This document shows positions 31,670 through 51,790 of a DNA stretch of 64,000 nucleotides, piece by piece (position 1 is the stretch's first letter; every line of letters begins with the position of its first letter). The position numbers and the translations under genes are program-made. The notes beneath the pieces are model-generated. The model saw only the letters and a program-made list of their open reading frames with translations. It searched no databases and was not told the DNA's origin. The stretch is from an uncultured Burkholderiales bacterium (GTDB lineage Bacteria; Pseudomonadota; Gammaproteobacteria; Burkholderiales; Thiobacillaceae): positions 1-64,000 of the forward strand of contig CALHRD010000110.1 in NCBI GenBank assembly GCA_938038385.1, read 5' to 3'.

Positions 31670-31674
31670 AAGGG

Positions 31675-31818
31675 TCAGGCCGCGGGGGGCACGGGCCTCA
31701 CCCTAAGGTGGAAGGTTACCGGTCCGTCGTTGACCAGGGCGATCCGCATGTGCGCGCCAAATACCCCCGTCGCCACGTGGGTATGATTGGCCCGTGCCTG
31801 GCGCAGGAGATACTCGAA
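31675..31818 (-). pseudogene. dtd: C-terminal remnant of D-aminoacyl-tRNA deacylase (dtd)
   Basis: The last about 47 codons match the C-terminus of D-aminoacyl-tRNA deacylase: FEYLLRQARANH, VATGVFGAHMRIALVNDGPV, then TFHLRV. The NDGPVTF motif is the family signature. The upstream two thirds (about 100 residues, including the N-terminal SQFTL-containing part) are missing. The match ends exactly where the family B repeat begins (31819), so the gene seems to have been cut at the repeat. The frame is open into the repeat, but a start and the active-site half are absent. Confidence 0.8.
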
Positions 31819-31915
31819 CCTGAATCCGTGTCGATCTCGACCAACCCTGTGTAGGTCGGACTTCAGGTTGGGTGTCGGGCTGAAGCCCGACCTACGGCCC
31901 GACCTACGGACCATT
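31819..31915. repeat. Dispersed palindromic repeat, family B, copy 2
   Basis: Shares CCTGAATC-GTGTCGAT-CGAC-AAC-GTGTAGGTCGG with the copy at 21584, followed by the hairpin GTCGGGCTGAAGCCCGAC and a second GCCCGACCTAC. The left end abuts the truncated dtd gene. Confidence 0.8.
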
Positions 31916-31982
31916 CCGCGTGAGGTGCACGGATTCTGCCATCGGCCATCGGCGGCGTCACCGTCAGTGCTGGAAAAATCCC

Positions 31983-32010
31983 TAAAGTTTTCATCCACGC
32001 CTGCCGATAA
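31983..32010 (+). promoter_or_regulatory. Sigma-28 (FliA)-type promoter
   Basis: TAAAGTTT (31983-31990) and GCCGATAA (32003-32010) match both FliA consensus halves at every base. The spacing from TAAA to the -10 is 16 nt against the usual 15. Transcription from about 32017 would start just upstream of the cyclic-di-GMP riboswitch. This ties the DUF1631/HDOD operon to the flagellar class III regulon (inference). Confidence 0.8.
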
Positions 32011-32030
32011 GGTTTCAAGCAGTTTAGCGT

Positions 32031-32122
32031 TGGTGCAACCTGCAAGGGCAAACGCGCCGAAAGGCGGGGACGCAAAATCACCGGTCTAAGGGGGTCACAC
32101 CCTATGACAGCGGGATTGCCAG
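32031..32122 (+). ncRNA. Cyclic-di-GMP-I (GEMM) riboswitch
   Basis: Matches the GEMM-I aptamer: P1 arms TGGTGCAA and TTGCCA, the AGGGCAAA element, a CGCC-GAAA-GGCG stem with GNRA tetraloop, the conserved GGGACGCAAA junction and a P3 stem with the 11-nt tetraloop-receptor halves (TCTAAGG and CCCTATG), then CAGCGGG. It lies about 15 nt downstream of the predicted sigma-28 start and about 140 nt upstream of the DUF1631 start codon. Expected to bind cyclic-di-GMP and control the DUF1631/EAL-HDOD operon; on or off direction is not readable by eye. Confidence 0.92.
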
Positions 32123-32129
32123 GAAACTT

Positions 32130-32154
32130 CGGAGGCGGTGTACATGCGCCTCCG
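32130..32154 (+). promoter_or_regulatory. Hairpin just after the riboswitch aptamer
   Basis: A perfect 8-bp stem CGGAGGCG / CGCCTCCG around a 9-nt loop begins 8 nt after the aptamer. No T-tract follows, so it is not a standard intrinsic terminator. It may belong to the expression platform, possibly as a Rho-related or structural switch element. Confidence 0.5.
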
Positions 32155-32264
32155 CCCTGCAACCCATCTCCCGTGCCTGCCCTGCCGATCGCCAGATGTC
32201 GAAATCCTCTCGACCTGGCCCGCCACCACGCTTTGCATTCCATCTGGACAGCAGGAGGCAGACC

Positions 32265-34634
32265 ATGCAGGAAGCGCGGAATGTCGTGGAATTCAGCCAG
32301 TCCCGCCGCACGGCCGGACCGGCAGGCAACCGTGTCCTGGACGACAGCGGCGAGCTGGCCGCAAACCGTCTCGTCGAGGCCCTGGGCAAGGCCCTGGAGG
32401 TATCCGGCAAGGAACTGCACCAGTTGGCCGCCCATACCCATCATCACGAGATGAGCATGCTCTATCTCGAGGGCATGGAATTCCTGCGCGACCGTGCCGC
32501 CGCCATCGAGGTCGGTTTTCGGCAAACCTTCTTCAAGGCTTACAAGCAGGGCTGCCGCAAGGCCCTCATGGCTGCTAACCCTGTAGCCCTGTCGGATTCC
32601 CAGCTCAGCCTCATGGAACCGGATGACCTCGAGGAGACCCTGGCTGTCAACAATCTGGCCAATGCCCTGCACAATGCCTGCGGCGAGGAACTGTTCGGGC
32701 TGAATCAGCGCATGGGGGTCCTGCTCGACCAGCGCGACCTCTCCTCCGAGGACAACCCCCTCGGTCCCGAGGTGATCGGCAAGGCCATCCTGGACACCTT
32801 CAAGGAACAGGACAGCGACCTCAAGGTGAGGCTGGTACTGGCGTCCATGCTGAACAAACAGCTGCCGGAACGGGTGAAGGAGGTCTACCAGACCTTGAAC
32901 CGCTTCCTGGTGGACAAGGGCGTCCTTCCCGCCATCCGCGTCGGACTCAAGAAGGCGCCAAAAGGCGGAGAGGCTGGATCGGTCGGGCAGGTCAATGCCG
33001 GCGGCCCGGTGCAAAACGCGGATCTGCTCACAGTACTACAGCAACTGCTGGCGTCGGGTGGGCGAGCGGCGGGCCCCCTGCTGGCCGGCGCTCCAGTGAT
33101 GCCCGGTATCCCTGTGCCTGCCAGCCTGGCCAGCGGCGGCCCATCCACGGGTACGGTCGCAGGTGCCATGCCCACTGGCGGGGTCGCCACCGCCACACCC
33201 GTATTCATGCACACCCTCACGCAACTGCAGCGTGGCCAGACCGAGGGCCTCAACCTGCAGGGCCTGGAAGCCGCCCATCTGGGCGACGGCCAGATCAATG
33301 TGTTGCGGGAGATCAAGAACGCAGGCGTGGCCGCGGGCATGGGCCAAGTCGATGCCATGACCCTGGACATCGTGGCCCTGATCTTCGACTACATCCTGGA
33401 CGACAGGCGCGTACCGGATGCGATGAAGGCGCTGATCGGCAGGCTGCAGATCCCGGTGCTGAAGGTGGCCATGCTCGACCGCAACTTCTTCTCCCAGAAG
33501 GCCCATCCCGCCCGCCGGCTGCTGGACACGCTGGCCGAGGTGTCCATGGGCTGGAACGCGGAGGAAGGCCACGAGAGCGGGCTCTACCGCAAGGTGGACG
33601 ACATCGTCCAGCGCATCCTGAACGACTTCGACGACAAGCTGGACGTGTTCCATGCCGCCCTGGAGGACCTGGAAGGCTATCTGGCCGAGGAAAAGCGGCA
33701 GATCGACGCCCATACGGCGCGCGGCGCCCAGCTCCTCTATACGCGGGAACAGCGTGAGCTCGCCGAGGTGGTCGCCTATGACACCATCCACACCCAGCTC
33801 TTCGGCCACTCCGCCCCTGCGCTGATCCAGGACTTCCTGCACGGGACCTGGCGGCAACTGCTCACCCTGGTCTACAGTCAGTCCGGCGAGGACAGCGAGG
33901 CATGGCGGGGGGCGGTCCAGACCATGTCCGATCTGATCTGGAGCGTGACACCCAAGACCAGCGCGGAAGAGCGCAAACTGCTGGTGCAGCGCCTGCCGGG
34001 CATACTCAAGCGAATGTCGGATGGCTTCAAGACCCTGGAGGTCCCCCAGGCGGAACAGGACAGATTCTTCGCCGCCTTGGTGAAGTGCCACGCCGAGGCG
34101 GTCAAGAGCGGCATGAAAGGAGCGACGGCGGAGACGGCCAACGAGCCCGCCGTCAGCCCCATCCCGGCTGCATCACCGCAGCCGGTGCCCCACGAACCAG
34201 CGGACTTCGAAGAGGTGCCGGTACTGAACGAGGCCGTGGAAGTGATGCCGACGCTACTGCAGGAGGTCTCCGCGCTGCCCATCGTCAGTCAGCATACCGA
34301 TACCGAGGAGATCACCCTGACTGACGTGAGCTGGCTGGCAGGGGGTGAGCCGGAGGATGACAAGTACGATGTCATGGTCCGGCAGCTCAAGCGCGGCAGC
34401 TGGATCGAATTTCGGCAGGAGGACGGCAATATGGCCCGGGCCAAACTGGCCTGGATCAGCCCGATGAAGGGCATCTATCTGTTCACCAACCGTTTGGGCC
34501 AGAGGGCCATGTCCATCCATGCCAGCGGTCTGGCAACCAAGCTGCGCGAGGGGCAGATCCAGCTAATCGACAGCGTGCCCCTGATGGACCGGGCTGTGGA
34601 TGCCCTGTTGAGCAAACTGCACAACACGGCCTAG
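32265..34634 (+). CDS. DUF1631 family protein, long form, under cyclic-di-GMP riboswitch
   Basis: A 789-residue largely helical cytoplasmic protein of the DUF1631 family. Seen are a helical N-terminal domain (FLRDRAAAIEVGFRQTFFKAY), a middle region (LDIVALIFDYILDDRRVPDAM, then LKVAMLDRNFFS), a helical VQDFL-type block (IQDFLHGTWRQLLTLVYSQS) and a C-terminal beta-rich PilZ-like segment (GSWIEFRQEDGNMARAKLAW, IYLFTNRLGQRAMSI) without an obvious RxxxR. AGGAGG 6 nt before ATG 32265 fixes the start. Function unknown; the leader carries a sigma-28 promoter and a cyclic-di-GMP riboswitch. A shorter paralogue is at 49116. Confidence 0.85.
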   Translation: MQEARNVVEFSQSRRTAGPAGNRVLDDSGELAANRLVEALGKALEVSGKELHQLAAHTHHHEMSMLYLEGMEFLRDRAAAIEVGFRQTFFKAYKQGCRKALMAANPVALSDSQLSLMEPDDLEETLAVNNLANALHNACGEELFGLNQRMGVLLDQRDLSSEDNPLGPEVIGKAILDTFKEQDSDLKVRLVLASMLNKQLPERVKEVYQTLNRFLVDKGVLPAIRVGLKKAPKGGEAGSVGQVNAGGPVQNADLLTVLQQLLASGGRAAGPLLAGAPVMPGIPVPASLASGGPSTGTVAGAMPTGGVATATPVFMHTLTQLQRGQTEGLNLQGLEAAHLGDGQINVLREIKNAGVAAGMGQVDAMTLDIVALIFDYILDDRRVPDAMKALIGRLQIPVLKVAMLDRNFFSQKAHPARRLLDTLAEVSMGWNAEEGHESGLYRKVDDIVQRILNDFDDKLDVFHAALEDLEGYLAEEKRQIDAHTARGAQLLYTREQRELAEVVAYDTIHTQLFGHSAPALIQDFLHGTWRQLLTLVYSQSGEDSEAWRGAVQTMSDLIWSVTPKTSAEERKLLVQRLPGILKRMSDGFKTLEVPQAEQDRFFAALVKCHAEAVKSGMKGATAETANEPAVSPIPAASPQPVPHEPADFEEVPVLNEAVEVMPTLLQEVSALPIVSQHTDTEEITLTDVSWLAGGEPEDDKYDVMVRQLKRGSWIEFRQEDGNMARAKLAWISPMKGIYLFTNRLGQRAMSIHASGLATKLREGQIQLIDSVPLMDRAVDALLSKLHNTA

Positions 34635-34637
34635 GAG

Positions 34638-35951
34638 ATGCCCTTGGAACGATCGTCGATCGCCGTCCGTCAGCCCGCTGAGACCGGTCAGCAGCAGCCT
34701 GCCGGCGCGCCCGGTGAGCTGAGCATCCCCGCCCATCTGCAGCGCTTCCTGGTCCGTCAGCCCATCCTCGACCAGCACTATCGTGTGGCCGGCTACGAGC
34801 TTGCCTTGCGTGAGCGGGTGCCCGTGCCTGCCCTGCCCGGCGCCCAGAGCCTGCAGCAGATGCGCGACGAGATGCTGCTCACCGCCGTCATCGACATGGC
34901 CTACCAGCGTGCCCTGGGTACCCGCCTCACCTTCCTGGCCGTGGCATCTGACACCCTGTTGAACCCGCTGGTGACGCAACTGCCCCCGGACAGGGTGGTC
35001 CTCTGCGTCACCGGTGCCGATCTCGTCCACGCCGGCGCACCCTTGCAGGAGGTCGTGGCCCAGGGTGGCATCCCGCTGGCCGTGGACGAACCGCCCCGGC
35101 AGCCGGGCATCACCAACCACTTGCGCCAGTCGCGCTATATCCGCCTCGATGTCACGCAACACGACGTGCCCAGTCTGATCGGCCAAGTGCAGGCGCTGCG
35201 ACGCTCACTCAAGGCGTGCATCATCGCCCGCAACGTGGATACGGAAGAGGCGCACGAGGCCTGCAGGAAGATGCAGTTCGACCTGTTCCAGGGCTATTAC
35301 TTCACCTGTCTGCAGCCCAGTTTCCGCAATCGCATCGACAGCAGCCGACAGCGCATCATGGAATTGCTCAATCTGGTCATGACCCAGGCCGAAGCCGCCC
35401 GGATCGAGGCCCGCTTCAAGACCGACGCCGGTCTGACCTATAAGCTGCTGCGCCTGATCAATTCACCCGCCTTCGGCCTGCGCGGTCCCGTAAAATCGAT
35501 CGGCCAGGCCCTCATGCTGCTCGGTTACGAACAACTCTACCGCTGGCTCACCCTGCTGCTGTTCACCCAGGGGCCGGCCGACCCCCGCGGCCAGGCCCTG
35601 CTCAGGAATGCCCTCATCCGCGCGCGTTTCGCGGAGCAACTGGGTGAATCGCGCCTGCCTGCCGGTGAACGGGGCGGGTTGTTCCTGGTCGGCATCCTCT
35701 CCACGCTGGATGCCCTGTTCAATGTACCGATGGATCAGGCCCTGGGCCAGCTTCGCCTGCCGGACGAGGTGGTCGCTGCCCTGACCCGCGGGGAAGGCAT
35801 CTACGCCCCCTATCTGCGGCTGGTGTTGGCCTGCGAGCATTTCGACCAGGAGAGCATCGCCCGGTTGGCCGAACTGATCGGGGCATGCGCTGACGAGGTC
35901 AACCTGGCCCACATCAAGGCCATGATCTGGGCGGAGGAGCTGGACACCTGA
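34638..35951 (+). CDS. Degenerate EAL-HDOD (YuxH-type) signalling protein
   Basis: A 437-residue protein with a vestigial EAL domain (about 35-215) followed by an HDOD domain (about 225-420). The EAL signature reads GYELALRE, and the catalytic acidic residues are largely gone, though FQGYYF remains at the domain end. HDOD is clear in LLNLVMTQAE, TYKLLRLINSPAFG and SIGQALMLLG. It is a binder or scaffold rather than a phosphodiesterase (inference). An AGGAG directly abuts the ATG; a TTG two codons later (34644) has better spacing and could be the true start. Paralogue at 50486. Confidence 0.88.
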   Translation: MPLERSSIAVRQPAETGQQQPAGAPGELSIPAHLQRFLVRQPILDQHYRVAGYELALRERVPVPALPGAQSLQQMRDEMLLTAVIDMAYQRALGTRLTFLAVASDTLLNPLVTQLPPDRVVLCVTGADLVHAGAPLQEVVAQGGIPLAVDEPPRQPGITNHLRQSRYIRLDVTQHDVPSLIGQVQALRRSLKACIIARNVDTEEAHEACRKMQFDLFQGYYFTCLQPSFRNRIDSSRQRIMELLNLVMTQAEAARIEARFKTDAGLTYKLLRLINSPAFGLRGPVKSIGQALMLLGYEQLYRWLTLLLFTQGPADPRGQALLRNALIRARFAEQLGESRLPAGERGGLFLVGILSTLDALFNVPMDQALGQLRLPDEVVAALTRGEGIYAPYLRLVLACEHFDQESIARLAELIGACADEVNLAHIKAMIWAEELDT

Positions 35952-35978: not shown

Positions 35979-36020
35979 ATGTCGGGCTATAGCCCGATCT
36001 ACCGCCCGACCTTGAGCCGG
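35979..36020. repeat. Short palindrome related to repeat family B
   Basis: TCGGGCTATAGCCCGA (35982-35997) followed by a further CCGCCCGACC, lying 30 bp after the EAL-HDOD stop. It shares the GTCGGGC/GCCCGAC core with the larger copies at 21584 and 31819 and may serve as a transcript 3' hairpin. Confidence 0.55.
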
Positions 36021-43681: not shown

Positions 43682-43723
43682 AGGGCTGCGGGGCCATCAT
43701 GCGTTGCCAGGGCTCGAAAATCC

Positions 43724-43750
43724 TAAAGAGATTCGCAGCGGGGCCGATAT
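43724..43750 (+). promoter_or_regulatory. Sigma-28 (FliA)-type promoter
   Basis: TAAA (43724-43727), exactly 15 nt, then GCCGATAT (43743-43750), one base off the FliA -10 consensus. Transcription from about 43757 leads into the HDOD-kinase gene, which supports the start at 43788 over upstream in-frame codons. Confidence 0.7.
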
Positions 43751-43787
43751 AGAGCCGTTGACAGCGAAAAAAACGACCGCGCGCCCC

Positions 43788-45905
43788 ATGGTCACGAGCC
43801 CAGAGCTACAGGAGAACATCCGCCACAGGCTGGCCTCGGCCCAGCTACCTGCCCTGCCTCAGGTCCTGCTGCAGGTGATGCAGCAGTGTGAAGCCGAGGA
43901 CAGCGGCCTGGCCGAGATCGCCGAGGTGGTGCGCCGTGACGCCGCCATTGCCGCGCGCATCCTGAGCATCGCACGCTCCCCTTACTACAACCGTGGCCGT
44001 AGCGTGGAAGCCCTCAGCCAGTGCCTGGCCGTGCTGGGCACCCGGACCGTTCGTCGCATCGCGCTGAACCAGGCGGTCCTGGACCTGTTCGGACGCTTCC
44101 AGGGCGCAGGCAGGTCCGACCTGGCCGCCTTCTGGTGCCATGCCCTGCTCACCGCCCTGCTGGCCCGGCAACTGGCCGAACACCTCGACTACCCCCACAC
44201 CGAGGAGGCCTACCTGGCGGGACTGCTGCACGACGTCGGTCGGCTCGCCCTGCTGGCCGCCCTGCCCGAAGACTACGGCCCCCTGTTCGAGGCTGCGCTG
44301 GACGAGACCGCGTTGATCGGGCAGGAACGCACGCGCTTCGACCTCGACCATGCCGAGGCCGGTGCCTGGCTGGCGGAGCGCTGGCAGCTCGATCCGCTGT
44401 TCTGCGACAGCCTGCGCTACCACCACGAAAGCGTCGGGCGGGTGAACGACGCCCACCTCCTGGTGCGCATCGTCGCCCTGGCCGACCGTCTCGGTAGCGG
44501 TGGCTGGACGGGCGAGGATGCCGCGGCCTGGGGCCTGGAGACCACCCGGGCCGAGGCCATGCTGGTTCAGGCGCACGAGGACCTGAAGGCGATCGCGGGT
44601 CAATTCGGCATCCCGGTGCCGGATCAGCCCGGCCCGGCCGTGGCGACCGGACCTGCCGATCAGAGCGTCATCGTACGTCTGGCCCAGGCCACCTCCAGCC
44701 GGCTGCTGGCGGCAGGTGCCCTCGATGAGGCGCCATGTCCTTCGGGTGTCGGTCAGGCTTACGAGGCCCTGGTCCGCGGTGCGCAGCTCCTCTTCGGCAC
44801 ACGCAAAGCGGCCCTCTTCCTGCCGGAAAACGACGGCCTGCGCGGGGTCAGCCCCGACCGGCAGGATCCCCGCGTGGAGGAGATACGCATCCGCCTGCCT
44901 GCGGTCGACTCGGCCATCGGCCGCGCGCATGGCGGCCGGCCGGAGATCCTGCGGCCGCAGGCCGACCGCGACAGCCTGGTGGACATGCACCTCTGCCGGC
45001 TGCTGGGCGCCGAAGCCCTGGTCTGCCTGCCGCTCGTCCATGCCGGCCTGGCCATGGGAGTCCTGGCCCTGGGCATCGACAGCGCCGGGGCCGTGGGGCT
45101 GCGCGCCCGGCAGGGTCTGCTCGCGGTCTATGCGACAGAGGCGGGGCGCCAGTTCCACCAAGCCCGAATCCAGGCCGGGGCCCTCAGCCAGGCAAGGCAG
45201 ACGGTCGCCGACGAATACCTGCTCAAGGCGCGTCAGGTCATCCACGAGGTGGGCAACCCCCTGGGGGTGGTGCACAACTATCTCGCCATCCTGCGCGATC
45301 GTCTGGCAAACATCCCCGAGTCGGTGCAGGAAATCGACCTCATGCGCGAGGAGCTGCGGCGCGTCGGCGGCATCCTGCAGACGCTCAGGCAGGCCGGGCC
45401 CTCCCAGGAGGCTGCAGCAGAACGCGTCGACATCAACGCCCTCATACGCCAGGTCATCGAGCTTTGCCACAAGGGCAGACCCGGGATGGCCCGCGTCCAA
45501 ACGGAATTCCAGGCCGACGAGGGCTTGCAACCGCTCACCCTCGACCGGGACAAGCTGAAGCAGGTCCTGATCAACCTGATCTTCAACGCTGTGGAGGCCA
45601 TGCCGGATGGCGGCCGCCTGAGCCTTTCCACCGCCCGTTGGCATAGCGGGACGGGGGAGGAGAGTGTGGAGATCACCGTGCAGGATACCGGCCCGGGCCT
45701 CCCCACCGTGGTCCTGGAGCGGCTCTACGCCCCGGTGGCCAGCCGCAAGGGCGGCGATCACGCCGGGCTGGGTCTGTCCATCGTCGGGCGGCTGGTGGAG
45801 GAACTGGGTGCGGTGATACAGTGCCAGAGCACGTCGGCTGGGACACGCTTCAAGCTCGTGCTGCCGGGAGAGGTCAGGAAAGGCGCGGGGGGTAAGATTT
45901 CATGA
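43788..45905 (+). CDS. HDOD-domain sensor histidine kinase
   Basis: A 705-residue fusion. An HDOD domain comes first (LPALPQVLLQVMQQCEAEDS, then ILSIARSPYYN, with an HD-like LLHDVGRLALL). A GAF-like middle follows (about 330-470, ALVCLPLVHAGLAMGVLALG). The C-terminal kinase has an H-box VIHEVGNPLGVVHNY, N-box LINLIFNAVEAM, G1 DTGPGLP and G2 GLGLSIVGRL. No membrane segment, so it senses cytoplasmic cues. It shares ATGA with the response regulator gene downstream. The start ATG 43788 has no strong ribosome site. Confidence 0.88.
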   Translation: MVTSPELQENIRHRLASAQLPALPQVLLQVMQQCEAEDSGLAEIAEVVRRDAAIAARILSIARSPYYNRGRSVEALSQCLAVLGTRTVRRIALNQAVLDLFGRFQGAGRSDLAAFWCHALLTALLARQLAEHLDYPHTEEAYLAGLLHDVGRLALLAALPEDYGPLFEAALDETALIGQERTRFDLDHAEAGAWLAERWQLDPLFCDSLRYHHESVGRVNDAHLLVRIVALADRLGSGGWTGEDAAAWGLETTRAEAMLVQAHEDLKAIAGQFGIPVPDQPGPAVATGPADQSVIVRLAQATSSRLLAAGALDEAPCPSGVGQAYEALVRGAQLLFGTRKAALFLPENDGLRGVSPDRQDPRVEEIRIRLPAVDSAIGRAHGGRPEILRPQADRDSLVDMHLCRLLGAEALVCLPLVHAGLAMGVLALGIDSAGAVGLRARQGLLAVYATEAGRQFHQARIQAGALSQARQTVADEYLLKARQVIHEVGNPLGVVHNYLAILRDRLANIPESVQEIDLMREELRRVGGILQTLRQAGPSQEAAAERVDINALIRQVIELCHKGRPGMARVQTEFQADEGLQPLTLDRDKLKQVLINLIFNAVEAMPDGGRLSLSTARWHSGTGEESVEITVQDTGPGLPTVVLERLYAPVASRKGGDHAGLGLSIVGRLVEELGAVIQCQSTSAGTRFKLVLPGEVRKGAGGKIS

Positions 45906-48088
45906 TCTACTGGGGCGACAAGGGCAAGTCTGAGGACCGGGCGATGGACGACGAGCGCGTCCGCATCCTGATCATCGAGGACGACACCCGTTTCGCCCAG
46001 AGCATGGCTTCCCTGCTCTGTAACGCCGGCTGGTCGGCAGAGACCTGCCTGACCGGCGTCGCCGGCCTGGGCCGTCTGGCGACGGAACCCTACGATCTCG
46101 TGCTGGTGGACATCAACCTGCCCGACATGTCCGGGCACGAAGTGGTGCGAGTGGTGCGGGAGCGGGGTGAAAACCTGCCAGTCATCGTGGTCAGCGGCGA
46201 GACCCAGATCGATGCCGCCATTCAGGCCCTGCGCCTCGGGGCCGCCGATTTCGTGCGCAAGCCGATCGAGCCGGACTTTCTGCTGCATCGTATCCGCGGC
46301 GTCCTCAGGCAGCGCTGGCTGGAGCGCGAATACAAGTCGTTCCAGCATCTGGTGAACCAGTCGGAACGGCTGCACCGTTTCCTGGTGGACAACTCGCCCG
46401 ACATCATCTTCACCCTGGACGAGGACAACCGCATCACCTTCATCAACGACCGCGTGCAGGAAAGCCTGGGCATCGCCCGGCAGGATCTGCTGGGTCGGCC
46501 CATGGTGGACCTGGTCTATGCCGACGACCGGGAACGGGCACGCTATGTGCTGAGGGAACGCCAGAACGAGAACCAGCCGCCGCAGACCGTCGAGCTGCGC
46601 CTCACGAGCAGTCAGGACAGCAAGGGTTACCGTATCTTCCAGACCTATTTTTCCTCGATCACCGAGGCCAACTGTTCGTCCCTGCACCCGCCGCAGCCCT
46701 GGGAGACCGAGGGATCCTGCTGCTATGGCGTGGCGCGGGACATCACCGACCAGCGCGAGGCCACGCAATGGGCCACCTACCACGTCAACCATGACGCACT
46801 CACCGGACTGCCCAACCGACAGCTCTTCCGCGACCGCCTGGGTCTGGCCATCACCCAGGCCATGCGCAATCGCGAGCGCTTCGCGGTGATCCACCTCAAT
46901 ATGGACCGTTTCAGTGCGATCAACAGCCTATACGGCCATGCGCGGGCGGACGAGGTGCTGCGCCAGATCTCCGAGCGCATCCAGCGCTGTCTGCGCGGCG
47001 GCGACACCCTGGCGCGGCTCGCCGCGGACGAGTTCCTGCTGCTCAACCTCCCCATCCGCAGCGAGGATGACGTGCAGGCGGTACTCGAGCGCATCGCCCA
47101 GGAACTGGCCGAGCCTTTCATGATCGATGACACCCCGCTCAAGCTCACGGCCAGCGCCGGCGTCGCCCTCTACCCGGAACATGGGGACAGCCCCGAAGCC
47201 CTGATCCGGCACGCCAATATCGCCCTCTATCACGGCCGGCGCGCCGGCGGCGGCAGCCATGCCTTCTTCCAGGAGGCGATGCGGGCAGACGCGGACCAGC
47301 GTCTGCACATAGAACACCAGCTGCAACGTGCCATCGAGCTGAAGCAGTTCGAGCTGCATTTCCAGCCCCAGGTGGACATCGCCAACCGCCGCATCCGTGG
47401 CGTGGAGGCCCTGCTGCGCTGGAACCACCCCGAACGGGGCCTGCTCTCTCCGAACGAGTTCATCGGCGTGGCCGAGGAGACCGGACTGATCGTGCCCCTG
47501 AGCAAATGGGTGCTCGACGAATCCTGCCGCCTGCTGCGGCAATGGATCGACCTGGGTATCGCACCGCCGCGCGTCGGCATCAATCTCTCGCCGCGCTGCC
47601 TGGATCTGCCGACCTTCGTCGACTGTTTCATGTCCAGCCTGGACCAGCACGGCGTGCCTGCCGAACGCATCGAGGTGGAGATCACCGAAAACCTGTTCAT
47701 CCACGACCCCGCCATGGCCGTGTCGAAGCTCAGGGACCTCACCATCAGGGGTGTGCGCATCGCCATCGACGACTTCGGCACCCAGTATTCCTCCCTCGGT
47801 TATCTGCAGAAATTCCCCATCCACACGCTCAAGATCGACAAATCTTTCGTCTGGGAGATCGACCGCGACGTGAGCCAGCACACCATCATCAAGGCCATCA
47901 TCTCCATCGGCCATGGCCTGGGGCTGAATCTCATCGCCGAGGGTGTGGAGACGGAGGCGCAGTTGCGTTTCCTGCGCGAACAGGGCTGCAGCGAGATCCA
48001 GGGCTTCCTCATCAGCCGGCCGCTACCCGGCAGGAAACTGGAGCAATGGTTGGCGCGGGGCGCTCACCCGCCGACACTCAACGCCTGA
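45902..48088 (+). CDS. Response regulator with PAS, degenerate GGDEF and intact EAL domains
   Basis: A 728-residue protein. The receiver domain has acidic EDD at 26-28, the phospho-acceptor D70 in LVLVDINLPDMSG and the Lys in VRKPIEP. PAS follows (about 155-290). The GGDEF-type domain has AADEF in place of GGDEF, so no cyclase activity is expected. The EAL domain keeps VEALLRW, NLSPR, EITENLF, IDDFGTQYSSLGYL, KIDKSF and AEGVETEAQ, so it should be an active cyclic-di-GMP phosphodiesterase. It is the likely partner of the HDOD kinase. A later ATG at 45944 is an alternative start. Confidence 0.92.
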   Translation: MIYWGDKGKSEDRAMDDERVRILIIEDDTRFAQSMASLLCNAGWSAETCLTGVAGLGRLATEPYDLVLVDINLPDMSGHEVVRVVRERGENLPVIVVSGETQIDAAIQALRLGAADFVRKPIEPDFLLHRIRGVLRQRWLEREYKSFQHLVNQSERLHRFLVDNSPDIIFTLDEDNRITFINDRVQESLGIARQDLLGRPMVDLVYADDRERARYVLRERQNENQPPQTVELRLTSSQDSKGYRIFQTYFSSITEANCSSLHPPQPWETEGSCCYGVARDITDQREATQWATYHVNHDALTGLPNRQLFRDRLGLAITQAMRNRERFAVIHLNMDRFSAINSLYGHARADEVLRQISERIQRCLRGGDTLARLAADEFLLLNLPIRSEDDVQAVLERIAQELAEPFMIDDTPLKLTASAGVALYPEHGDSPEALIRHANIALYHGRRAGGGSHAFFQEAMRADADQRLHIEHQLQRAIELKQFELHFQPQVDIANRRIRGVEALLRWNHPERGLLSPNEFIGVAEETGLIVPLSKWVLDESCRLLRQWIDLGIAPPRVGINLSPRCLDLPTFVDCFMSSLDQHGVPAERIEVEITENLFIHDPAMAVSKLRDLTIRGVRIAIDDFGTQYSSLGYLQKFPIHTLKIDKSFVWEIDRDVSQHTIIKAIISIGHGLGLNLIAEGVETEAQLRFLREQGCSEIQGFLISRPLPGRKLEQWLARGAHPPTLNA

Positions 48089-48920: not shown

Positions 48921-48935
48921 CGCAGCACCCGCCCG

Positions 48936-48953
48936 GTCGGGCCTCAGCCCGAC
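48936..48953. repeat. Short palindrome related to repeat family B
   Basis: GTCGGGC-ctca-GCCCGAC, 15 bp after the nei stop. It shares the core stem of repeat family B and may work as a transcript 3' hairpin. Confidence 0.55.
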
Positions 48954-48985
48954 ATGACACGACCGGATGTCCCGGCTCCCGGCCT

Positions 48986-49012
48986 TCAAGTTTTGCATGC
49001 CGGCTCCGATAA
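48986..49012 (+). promoter_or_regulatory. Sigma-28 (FliA)-type promoter
   Basis: TCAAGTTT (from 48986), 15 nt between TCAA and TCCGATAA (49005-49012): one base off the consensus in each half with ideal spacing. It lies about 100 bp before the short DUF1631 gene. Third such promoter in the window ahead of an HDOD-linked locus. Confidence 0.65.
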
Positions 49013-49115: not shown

Positions 49116-50477
49116 ATGACCAGGCAATTGACCCTGCTGTCCGCAAACGCAGGCGGCGCCGACCCCTACGCCGGACTACCCGCCGCGGAATTGCTGCGGG
49201 AGGTGGGCGAGATCGTCAGCGTGCGCATGGCCCAGCTGCTGCCCCAGGCGCTGGAACGGGCGGCCGGCAGCCTCTACCGTCAGGCCGAACAGGCCATCGA
49301 CATGGAGAAACGCCTGCTCAACATGGAGGCGGGCCAGCTGGCACAACATCGCCTGGTCCACCTGCCGGCAGACTTCCGCCGTCACTTCGAGCGCCGCTTC
49401 CCCGCCGCCTGCAGGCGTGACCCCCTGCGCCGTCATGGCCTGATGGACAGCGTCGATCCAACGCAACTGCGCATCGTAGACGAGACCCGCCTGGAGGCTG
49501 CCCTGGATGTCACCGACCTGACCCGGGCGCTGGAGGACGGCTGCCAACAATCGCTGTATGGCCTCCTGCACCAGTTCCGCCAGTTGCTGCAGGACCCCGA
49601 CCTGCCGCCCGCCCAGCTCCCCCTCGGCCCACGGGTGCTCGCCCAGGCCCTGGCACAGGCCCTGGGCGAGCATCCCTCTGCGCGGGTGCCCAAGCTCAAG
49701 GTGCTCCAAGCCCTGGCGCTGCACCTGCCCGCCCTGCTCCAACCCCTCTACCGGGACATACACAGTTACATCGACCAGCACCACAGCCCGGCCGAGGCCA
49801 CGGCCATCGTGCTGGATACGCTGCCCGAATTACCCGAGCCGACCCTGCCGGGCGGCTGCACTGGTAACACCGATACAACGACTGGCACGGCCGCCCCCCC
49901 TGACCCCGGGCAGAGCAGCGATGCCCCGGCAGCGACCATGGACCCCTCCCTGCAGTGCGCGCGCGAGGAGGTCGCGGCGCGGCTGGCCGGACAGCCTTTG
50001 CCCGAGGCAGTGCAGGACTTCCTGCAGCGCTACTGGCAATCCTGGCTTGCGGACTGTCATCGCTGCCACGGCGCCGAGAGCGACGCATGGCAGATGGCAT
50101 TGGCCACCATGGACGAGGTGATCCTCGCCCTGACCCCGCAACCGGTGCTGTCGGCCCAGGCCCGCCTGAGGCGGCTGCCGGCCGTGCTCGGCCGCCTGCG
50201 TGCGGGCATGGCCGCCGTCGGCATCCCGGCCGAGGCGCGCGACCGCTTCCTGGTGCAATGGATGCAGGCCCAGGCCCAACTCCTCGAGGCGGGCAGCTCA
50301 TCCCTCCAGGCTGCCGGACAGGCTGAGCCGGCACTTCGCTCCGCTCCGGACATGAGTTCCCCGGATGCACGCCGGGCCGCCCCAGGTGTTTCCTGCAACC
50401 CCTCGGGCGTCGGGTTGGGCGCAGCCGAGCCCCGGGGGGTCACCTCCACTCTCAATCAGGCCGTACGCACCCGCTGA
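49116..50477 (+). CDS. DUF1631 family protein, short form
   Basis: A 453-residue helical protein, a paralogue of the 789-residue DUF1631 protein at 32265. Matching blocks are ALEDGCQQSLYGLLHQFRQL with the N-terminal block and VQDFLQRYWQSWLADCHRCH, SDAWQMALATMDEVILALTP and RFLVQWMQAQAQ with the later block. The middle region of the long form and its C-terminal PilZ-like segment are missing, and a Pro/Thr-rich linker replaces part of it. No riboswitch is seen in its leader. It is followed after 8 bp by an EAL-HDOD gene, as in the first locus. Confidence 0.75.
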   Translation: MTRQLTLLSANAGGADPYAGLPAAELLREVGEIVSVRMAQLLPQALERAAGSLYRQAEQAIDMEKRLLNMEAGQLAQHRLVHLPADFRRHFERRFPAACRRDPLRRHGLMDSVDPTQLRIVDETRLEAALDVTDLTRALEDGCQQSLYGLLHQFRQLLQDPDLPPAQLPLGPRVLAQALAQALGEHPSARVPKLKVLQALALHLPALLQPLYRDIHSYIDQHHSPAEATAIVLDTLPELPEPTLPGGCTGNTDTTTGTAAPPDPGQSSDAPAATMDPSLQCAREEVAARLAGQPLPEAVQDFLQRYWQSWLADCHRCHGAESDAWQMALATMDEVILALTPQPVLSAQARLRRLPAVLGRLRAGMAAVGIPAEARDRFLVQWMQAQAQLLEAGSSSLQAAGQAEPALRSAPDMSSPDARRAAPGVSCNPSGVGLGAAEPRGVTSTLNQAVRTR

Positions 50478-50485
50478 GGTAAGCC

Positions 50486-51790
50486 ATGCACGACATCGGA
50501 CAACTGTCACCACGCCCCCTGACCGCCACTGCCAAGACACCTTCACCCAGCCCTGTCGGGTCTGAGGACAGCGTCCTGGACGGACTGCCCATCGGGCGCT
50601 TCATCACGCGCCTGCCCCTGCTCGATGCCGACTGCCGCATCGTCGGGTATGAACTGCAGATCCGTCCCCAGGCCCCCCTGCCCGTCCTGCCCGGCGCCAC
50701 CAGCCCGAACCAGATACAGGACGAAGCCCTGCTGACCACGGTCATCGACCTGGACTACCAGCAGGCCCTGGGCGACAAGTTGACCCTGCTCAGCCTGGAC
50801 GCCGCCACCCTGGGCAACCCGCTCCTGCAAATGCTCAAACCGGAACGCACCCTGCTGCTCCTGCCGGCCGGCTGTTCCCGGGAGGCGGCGGACCAGGCTG
50901 CGGCGCTCGCCCGGCAGGGCTTCGGCCTGGTGTGGGACGACATGGCCGAAGCGCAGCCCATCCAGGTCCCTGGCCACGTGCGCATAGACACGCGCCAGCA
51001 CAATGCCATGAGCCTCGGCCACCGCGCCATCACGGCACGGCAGCGGGACGCCGGCAAGTTGATCGCCGCTCACGTCGATACCGCGGAGACCTTAGAGGCC
51101 TGCAAGCGCCTGTCCTTCGACCTCGTGCAGGGCTATTTCTTCTCACAGACCCTGGCCACTCCGGGTCGCGAGCTGCAGGCCGGCCGACTGGTGATCATGG
51201 ACCTGCTCAACCTGGTCATGGGGCATGCGGATTTTCCCGCCATAGAGGCCAGGTTCAAGCAGGACGCAGCCTTGTCCTACAAGCTGCTGCGCTTCATCAA
51301 TTCGCCTGCGGTCGGCCTGCGCTACCCCATCAAGTCCATCGGCCAGGCGCTGGTCATGCTGGGTCACGACCAGCTCTACCGCTGGCTGACCCTTTTGCTG
51401 TTTACGCACACACAGGGCGACCCGCGCAGCCGCGCCCTGCTCAGGCACGCCGTGGTGCGCGCCCGCCTCACCGAGACCCTGGGCGAGCAACGGCTCAGCC
51501 GGGAGGAACGCGGCGGCCTGTTCATCGCCGGCATCCTGTCCATGCTCGATGCCCTGCTGGGGCTGCCGCTGGCCGAGGCCCTCGACCGGCTGAAACTGCC
51601 CGATACCGTCGTCGCGGCCCTGAGCACCGGTACGGGTCCTTACGCCGTCTATCTCCAGCTCGCCCAGGCCTGCGAGCAGTTCGACCAGACGCGCATCGCC
51701 CGCCTCAGCACCCAGGCCGGGCTCACGCCGGACGCGGTCAACCTGGCCCATGTCAATGCCCTGATCTGGTCCGAGGGGCTGGAGGATTGA
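50486..51790 (+). CDS. Degenerate EAL-HDOD signalling protein, second copy
   Basis: A 434-residue paralogue of the protein at 34638 and nearly colinear with it. The EAL signature is more decayed here (GYELQIRP), FDLVQGYFF ends the domain, and the HDOD part is well kept (MDLLNLVMGH, SYKLLRFINSPAVG, SIGQALVMLGHDQLYRWLTL). Cyclic-di-GMP hydrolysis is not expected. A GAGG ribosome site lies about 7 nt before the ATG. Last gene of the second DUF1631 unit; it converges on the secretion operon. Confidence 0.88.
   Translation: MHDIGQLSPRPLTATAKTPSPSPVGSEDSVLDGLPIGRFITRLPLLDADCRIVGYELQIRPQAPLPVLPGATSPNQIQDEALLTTVIDLDYQQALGDKLTLLSLDAATLGNPLLQMLKPERTLLLLPAGCSREAADQAAALARQGFGLVWDDMAEAQPIQVPGHVRIDTRQHNAMSLGHRAITARQRDAGKLIAAHVDTAETLEACKRLSFDLVQGYFFSQTLATPGRELQAGRLVIMDLLNLVMGHADFPAIEARFKQDAALSYKLLRFINSPAVGLRYPIKSIGQALVMLGHDQLYRWLTLLLFTHTQGDPRSRALLRHAVVRARLTETLGEQRLSREERGGLFIAGILSMLDALLGLPLAEALDRLKLPDTVVAALSTGTGPYAVYLQLAQACEQFDQTRIARLSTQAGLTPDAVNLAHVNALIWSEGLED

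Follow-up and report, generated by a model that had tools for sequence, protein, structure and literature searches.

In a 64,000-nucleotide stretch of DNA from an uncultured Burkholderiales bacterium of the Thiobacillaceae (contig CALHRD010000110.1, positions 1 to 64,000 of the forward strand; the window), a FliA (sigma-28)-like promoter box, a cyclic-di-GMP-I (GEMM-I) riboswitch aptamer and an AGGAGG Shine-Dalgarno (SD) sequence follow one another within 31983-32264, before the ATG at 32265 of a DUF1631 gene. Behind this gene lies a second, encoding an EAL-HDOD protein with a degenerate EAL domain. The box, the aptamer, the gene pair and the conserved co-occurrence of these parts are computational observations that we hold with high confidence. 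We propose that a sigma-28 transcript carries a leader acting as an OFF switch for cyclic di-GMP (c-di-GMP), and that DUF1631 and EAL-HDOD would be produced in motile cells low in c-di-GMP. The probability of this whole model is, in our estimate, about one half.

31983-32010, + strand: FliA (sigma-28)-like promoter, TAAAGTTT-N12-GCCGATAA; 13 of 13 matches, top site of the window; conserved before the aptamer
32037-32123, + strand: c-di-GMP-I (GEMM-I) riboswitch aptamer; RF01051, 77.4 bits; covariation with the same structure
32124-32264, + strand: leader or expression platform, with the SD sequence shortly before the ATG
32265-34634, + strand: DUF1631 gene, 789 amino acids; PF07793, E 7.8e-182; structure model
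34638-35951, + strand: EAL-HDOD gene, 437 amino acids; HDOD match, degenerate EAL below cut-off

A sigma-28-like box and a riboswitch before DUF1631 genes

Boxes were scored by their matches to TAAAG (five positions) and GCCGATAA (eight), with a spacer of 14-17 between TAAA and GCC. No site scoring 13 appeared in shuffled sequence, and TAAA-N15/16-GCCGATAA occurs once in the 64 kb and never in 100 shuffles. An earlier note on this DNA had recognised both FliA consensus halves at 31983-32010, correctly; it had also put the transcription start at 32010, which is the end of the box, while the start itself would be expected a few bases further on. The source genome encodes FliA (TIGR02479, 275 bits), and its motA is preceded by the same kind of box, TAAAG-N14-GCCGATAT. 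We infer that the box at 31983 serves as a sigma-28-type promoter in vivo.

The complete GEMM-I aptamer described in the earlier note is confirmed by a cmscan search of Rfam. The match to RF01051, well above the gathering score of 35 (E 1.8e-13), starts at 32037, covers the full model (1-87 of 87) with all helices and is the only Rfam match in the window. In the 49 distinct aptamer rows compared, 96.8% of cells are paired, and 16 of the 22 pairs show two-sided changes, a number that none of 500 shuffles equalled. In an alignment of 14 aptamers GGG at 32046-32048 does not vary, and it may include the position, G20 of Vc2, that marks specificity for c-di-GMP over cyclic GMP-AMP. The ligand of the window aptamer would be c-di-GMP. 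A hairpin 5' of the aptamer, common in relatives (mean z -1.0), was not seen in the window leader.

Searching the genome collection with a DUF1631 alignment yielded 80 named loci; those whose titles state a lineage are all proteobacterial, most of them from Beta- or Gammaproteobacteria. A covariance model trained on 14 aptamers places a same-strand riboswitch immediately before DUF1631 at 48 of these loci as well as in the window. A second, partly overlapping set comprised 80 GEMMs from relatives of the source genome. In this set 37 precede DUF1631 and 43 precede other genes, often those for type IV pilin-like or secreted proteins, judging from translations read by eye.

The box follows the combination of riboswitch and DUF1631. 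A box of at least 11/13 lies within 120 nucleotides (nt) of the aptamer in 34 of 78 distinct GEMM-DUF1631 leaders, where shuffling predicts 0.26 and both reversed and reverse-complement controls give none. The spacer is 15 in 27 of the 34 and 16 in six, the window included, and the distance from the box end to the aptamer is 17-43 nt in all but two. In the second set 21 of the 37 GEMMs before DUF1631 have a box, against 3 of the 43 before other genes (Fisher p 1.3e-6), and among the DUF1631 loci 18 of 48 with a GEMM have one, against 1 of 29 without (p 7e-4). The two layers of control put forward in the earlier note, transcription through sigma-28 and a leader that senses c-di-GMP, are thus well supported by conservation as a prediction from sequence.

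At loci L014, L015, L016 and L017 of some relatives, the aptamers before DUF1631 belong to the c-di-GMP-I-GGC class (RF03167), three with a GCGA-type tetraloop. In one genus, g7 (L185, L196, L197, L199 and L201), a box of TAAAG/TCAAG...CGTTA type stands only 7-9 nt from GEMMs, some of which precede secreted-looking proteins. The other c-di-GMP-I riboswitch of the source genome (L002, G000:C83:10117-10199) also matches the GGC variant RF03167 and lies before type IV minor-pilin-like genes.

The leader might instead be an abundant c-di-GMP-binding RNA rather than a switch acting in cis. An example is merRNA of Bdellovibrio bacteriovorus, a c-di-GMP riboswitch RNA made in a cell state in which FliA dominates (PMC3627812). 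However, merRNA has no downstream gene, and no FliA promoter is marked for it in Table 2 of that report, whereas in the window and its relatives the aptamer precedes a long open gene, mostly by about 90-220 nt. No intrinsic terminator was found in 31670-32300, which includes the leader after the aptamer. We consider this explanation very improbable.

Predicted direction of the switch

We compared the accessibility of the SD sequence with the aptamer free and with the aptamer enforced in 71 distinct GEMM-DUF1631 leaders, using dinucleotide-shuffled linkers as the control. Enforcing the aptamer lowered accessibility from 0.43 to 0.30, against 0.39 to 0.37 with shuffled linkers (Wilcoxon p 4e-6); it fell by more than 0.2 in 30% of leaders and rose by that much in none. 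The stretch pairing with the SD sequence when the aptamer is formed pairs, in the free state, with the aptamer more often than it does in controls (0.31 versus 0.14). The fall was not significant in GEMMs before other genes. These folding results suggest that the GEMM-DUF1631 leaders are translational OFF switches, the sign to which we lean. Pairing between the aptamer 3' strand and the linker was also considered as a general terminator or antiterminator and was rejected, the pairing showing no excess over shuffled linkers (mean z -0.13).

In the mechanism we propose, RNA polymerase carrying FliA would start the transcript just past 32010, giving an RNA with the riboswitch in its 5' leader followed by the DUF1631 and EAL-HDOD coding regions. 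FliA is active only after the flagellar hook-basal body is completed (FliA/FlgM), so the mRNA would be made in flagellated cells. At low c-di-GMP a CU-rich anti-SD stretch would be paired with the aptamer region. A rise in c-di-GMP would allow the aptamer to form and free this stretch, which would then cover the ribosome-binding site and reduce translation. Both inputs would signal the motile state, a finished flagellum and low c-di-GMP, forming a coherent feed-forward gate that could close before FliA activity has decayed.

The same architecture could work with the opposite sign, c-di-GMP binding permitting production of DUF1631 and EAL-HDOD. The proteins would then appear in flagellated cells with rising c-di-GMP, as on surface contact or in the change from motile to sessile life. 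RNA biology permits either sign, the leader in the window favours neither, and a few leaders have a downstream stretch complementary to the aptamer 3' strand, for example GGGATTGCA/TGCAATCCC in L010. Across loci, however, that complementarity does not rise above shuffled linkers, and the accessibility changes in the 71 leaders run the other way. An ON switch is a serious rival, if rather unlikely.

Several points weigh against the OFF-switch model or its promoter. The window's own leader shows a small change in SD accessibility, from 0.22 to 0.17, and the OFF sign at this locus is accordingly carried over from its relatives. The 71 leaders come from related species and are not independent, and energy-only folding of leaders of about 250 nt is unreliable and ignores co-transcriptional folding. 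Boxed leaders occur in 8 of the 14 genera that have GEMM-DUF1631 leaders, not in all; with eight genera the signal is not a single lineage counted repeatedly, though the loci are still not independent. Every second-set genome with a strong box encodes fliA except G080, which is 98% complete and has two strong boxes but no fliA match above cut-off. As a predictor of the box, fliA presence was not decisive: 19 of 31 GEMM-DUF1631 loci in genomes with fliA have a box, against 2 of 6 in genomes without, both in G080. Lastly, with both half-sites TAAAGTTT and GCCGATAA present, the window spacer of 16 exceeds the usual 15 by one base.

This unusual spacer, and the lack of a box in the remainder of the 78 leaders, would fit a real riboswitch transcribed from some other promoter, the FliA-like box being incidental. 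Against this, no sigma-70-like promoter was found in 31670-32300, and the box ranks first in the window, keeps a steady distance from the aptamer in relatives and is matched by zero in the controls. We regard an incidental box as improbable.

The encoded proteins and a possible local regulon

The gene order given in the earlier note, DUF1631 and then a degenerate EAL-HDOD gene, holds. The DUF1631 match to PF07793 reaches 607 bits against a cut-off of 33.7. Its AlphaFold model (mean predicted local distance difference test score 83) is a long helical protein with a small C-terminal beta barrel. Modelled alone, the barrel finds its listed structural matches among Tudor/SH3-like domains and in a TraI domain (Z up to 8.9 over 66 aligned residues, root-mean-square deviation 2.3), a common arrangement that is no sign of function. 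There was no PilZ chain among the structural matches listed, which does not exclude a PilZ domain, and no Pfam PilZ match.

The EAL-HDOD gene begins 3 nt after the DUF1631 gene and is probably the second gene of a DUF1631 operon. It directly follows DUF1631 in only 19 of the 80 loci, so the riboswitch belongs with DUF1631 first. Pfam finds its HDOD domain (E 1.4e-12), while EAL, at 22 bits, falls under the cut-off of 31.3. Aligned to the intact EAL encoded at 45902-48088, its NLS, ITE, DDFG, KIDKSF and AEGVE positions are replaced or absent. With most catalytic positions lost, phosphodiesterase activity is unlikely. Both products probably serve motile cells as scaffolds or signalling partners.

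The earlier note had proposed a feedback module, in which the EAL-HDOD or DUF1631 product would change c-di-GMP and so act back on its own riboswitch. The EAL-type remnant would fit this, as would an intact GGDEF-EAL gene at a distance of 10 kb, itself provided with a FliA-like box. EAL-HDOD proteins, a group that includes Vibrio CdgJ and its kin, likewise have a degenerate EAL followed by HDOD. CdgJ is reported to be a phosphodiesterase affecting motility and attachment (PMC4624765), whereas the window protein has its catalytic positions replaced and its gene follows DUF1631. The idea of feedback lacks support: most EAL catalytic residues are missing from the protein, the riboswitch keeps to DUF1631, which EAL-HDOD adjoins in only a minority of loci, and none of the protein analyses points to a product that alters c-di-GMP. 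Feedback is improbable, and a feed-forward gate for the motile state fits better.

The box at 31983 is one of four sites in the window that score at least 11, where 0.8 would be expected. Two others stand before the following genes.

43724-43750, + strand: FliA-like box, score 12, before HDOD-histidine kinase and response regulator-PAS-GGDEF-EAL genes
48986-49012, + strand: FliA-like box, TCAAG-N14-TCCGATAA, score 11, before a second DUF1631/EAL-HDOD pair
49116-50477, + strand: short DUF1631 paralogue, 453 amino acids; PF07793, E 3.1e-42
50486-51790, + strand: EAL-HDOD paralogue, 434 amino acids; 48% identical to the first EAL-HDOD

The second pair (49116-51790) lies about 15 kb downstream of the first, and the Rfam scan found no GEMM for it in the window, but short DUF1631 genes of other genera do have one (L139, L153). 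The region 43704-48088 encodes an HDOD-GAF-histidine kinase and then the response regulator-PAS-GGDEF-EAL protein (gene 45902-48088), whose EAL looks intact and whose GGDEF motif reads AADEF. A congener, G003, has a score-13 box before its kinase and GGDEF-EAL genes and a score-11 box before its orthologues of the second pair; another, G002, has a score-11 box before the latter. The kinase and GGDEF-EAL genes are possible members of the same regulon. Elsewhere in the source genome a score-13 FliA box (L036, G000:C79:24227-24252) lies about 290 nt before a gene for a 403-amino-acid protein without a Pfam match.

Next to the promoter, 31675-31998 on the minus strand encodes a C-terminal fragment of a D-aminoacyl-tRNA deacylase that matches the Pfam model at its last 39 positions only and looks like a remnant. 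Repeated palindrome-like GTCGGGCT..AGCCCGAC elements, found by eye, occupy intergenic positions 31851-31912, 35981-36013 and 48935-48956.

Related systems and meaning

The full-length aptamer is like those of other RF01051 c-di-GMP-I riboswitches; the difference here is its place behind a sigma-28-type promoter and before DUF1631. A GEMM-I riboswitch is tied to motility in C. difficile, where Cd1 lies on the flgB operon and c-di-GMP lowers expression (PMC5386303). There a sigma-A promoter and the riboswitch, which works by termination, act on the early flagellar operon and, through it, on sigD (PMC5386303). In the window, by contrast, sigma-28 would act upstream of the riboswitch.

In the limited literature searched, which did not include the original GEMM surveys, we met neither a sigma-28 promoter in front of a GEMM leader or a GEMM-DUF1631 arrangement nor a study of DUF1631. 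Each single part is known; the combination is the new aspect, and its novelty is provisional.

More generally, and tentatively, a conserved two-input leader in Betaproteobacteria, combining sigma-28 transcription with a c-di-GMP OFF riboswitch, may restrict DUF1631, alone or together with EAL-HDOD, to flagellated cells low in c-di-GMP; DUF1631 would then be a motile-state effector of a new class. The arrangement, which recurs across many genera, would join the status of flagellar assembly and a second messenger on one transcript. It would also give a testable lead, the first, on what the large DUF1631 family does: its members may act in motile cells and be controlled by c-di-GMP.

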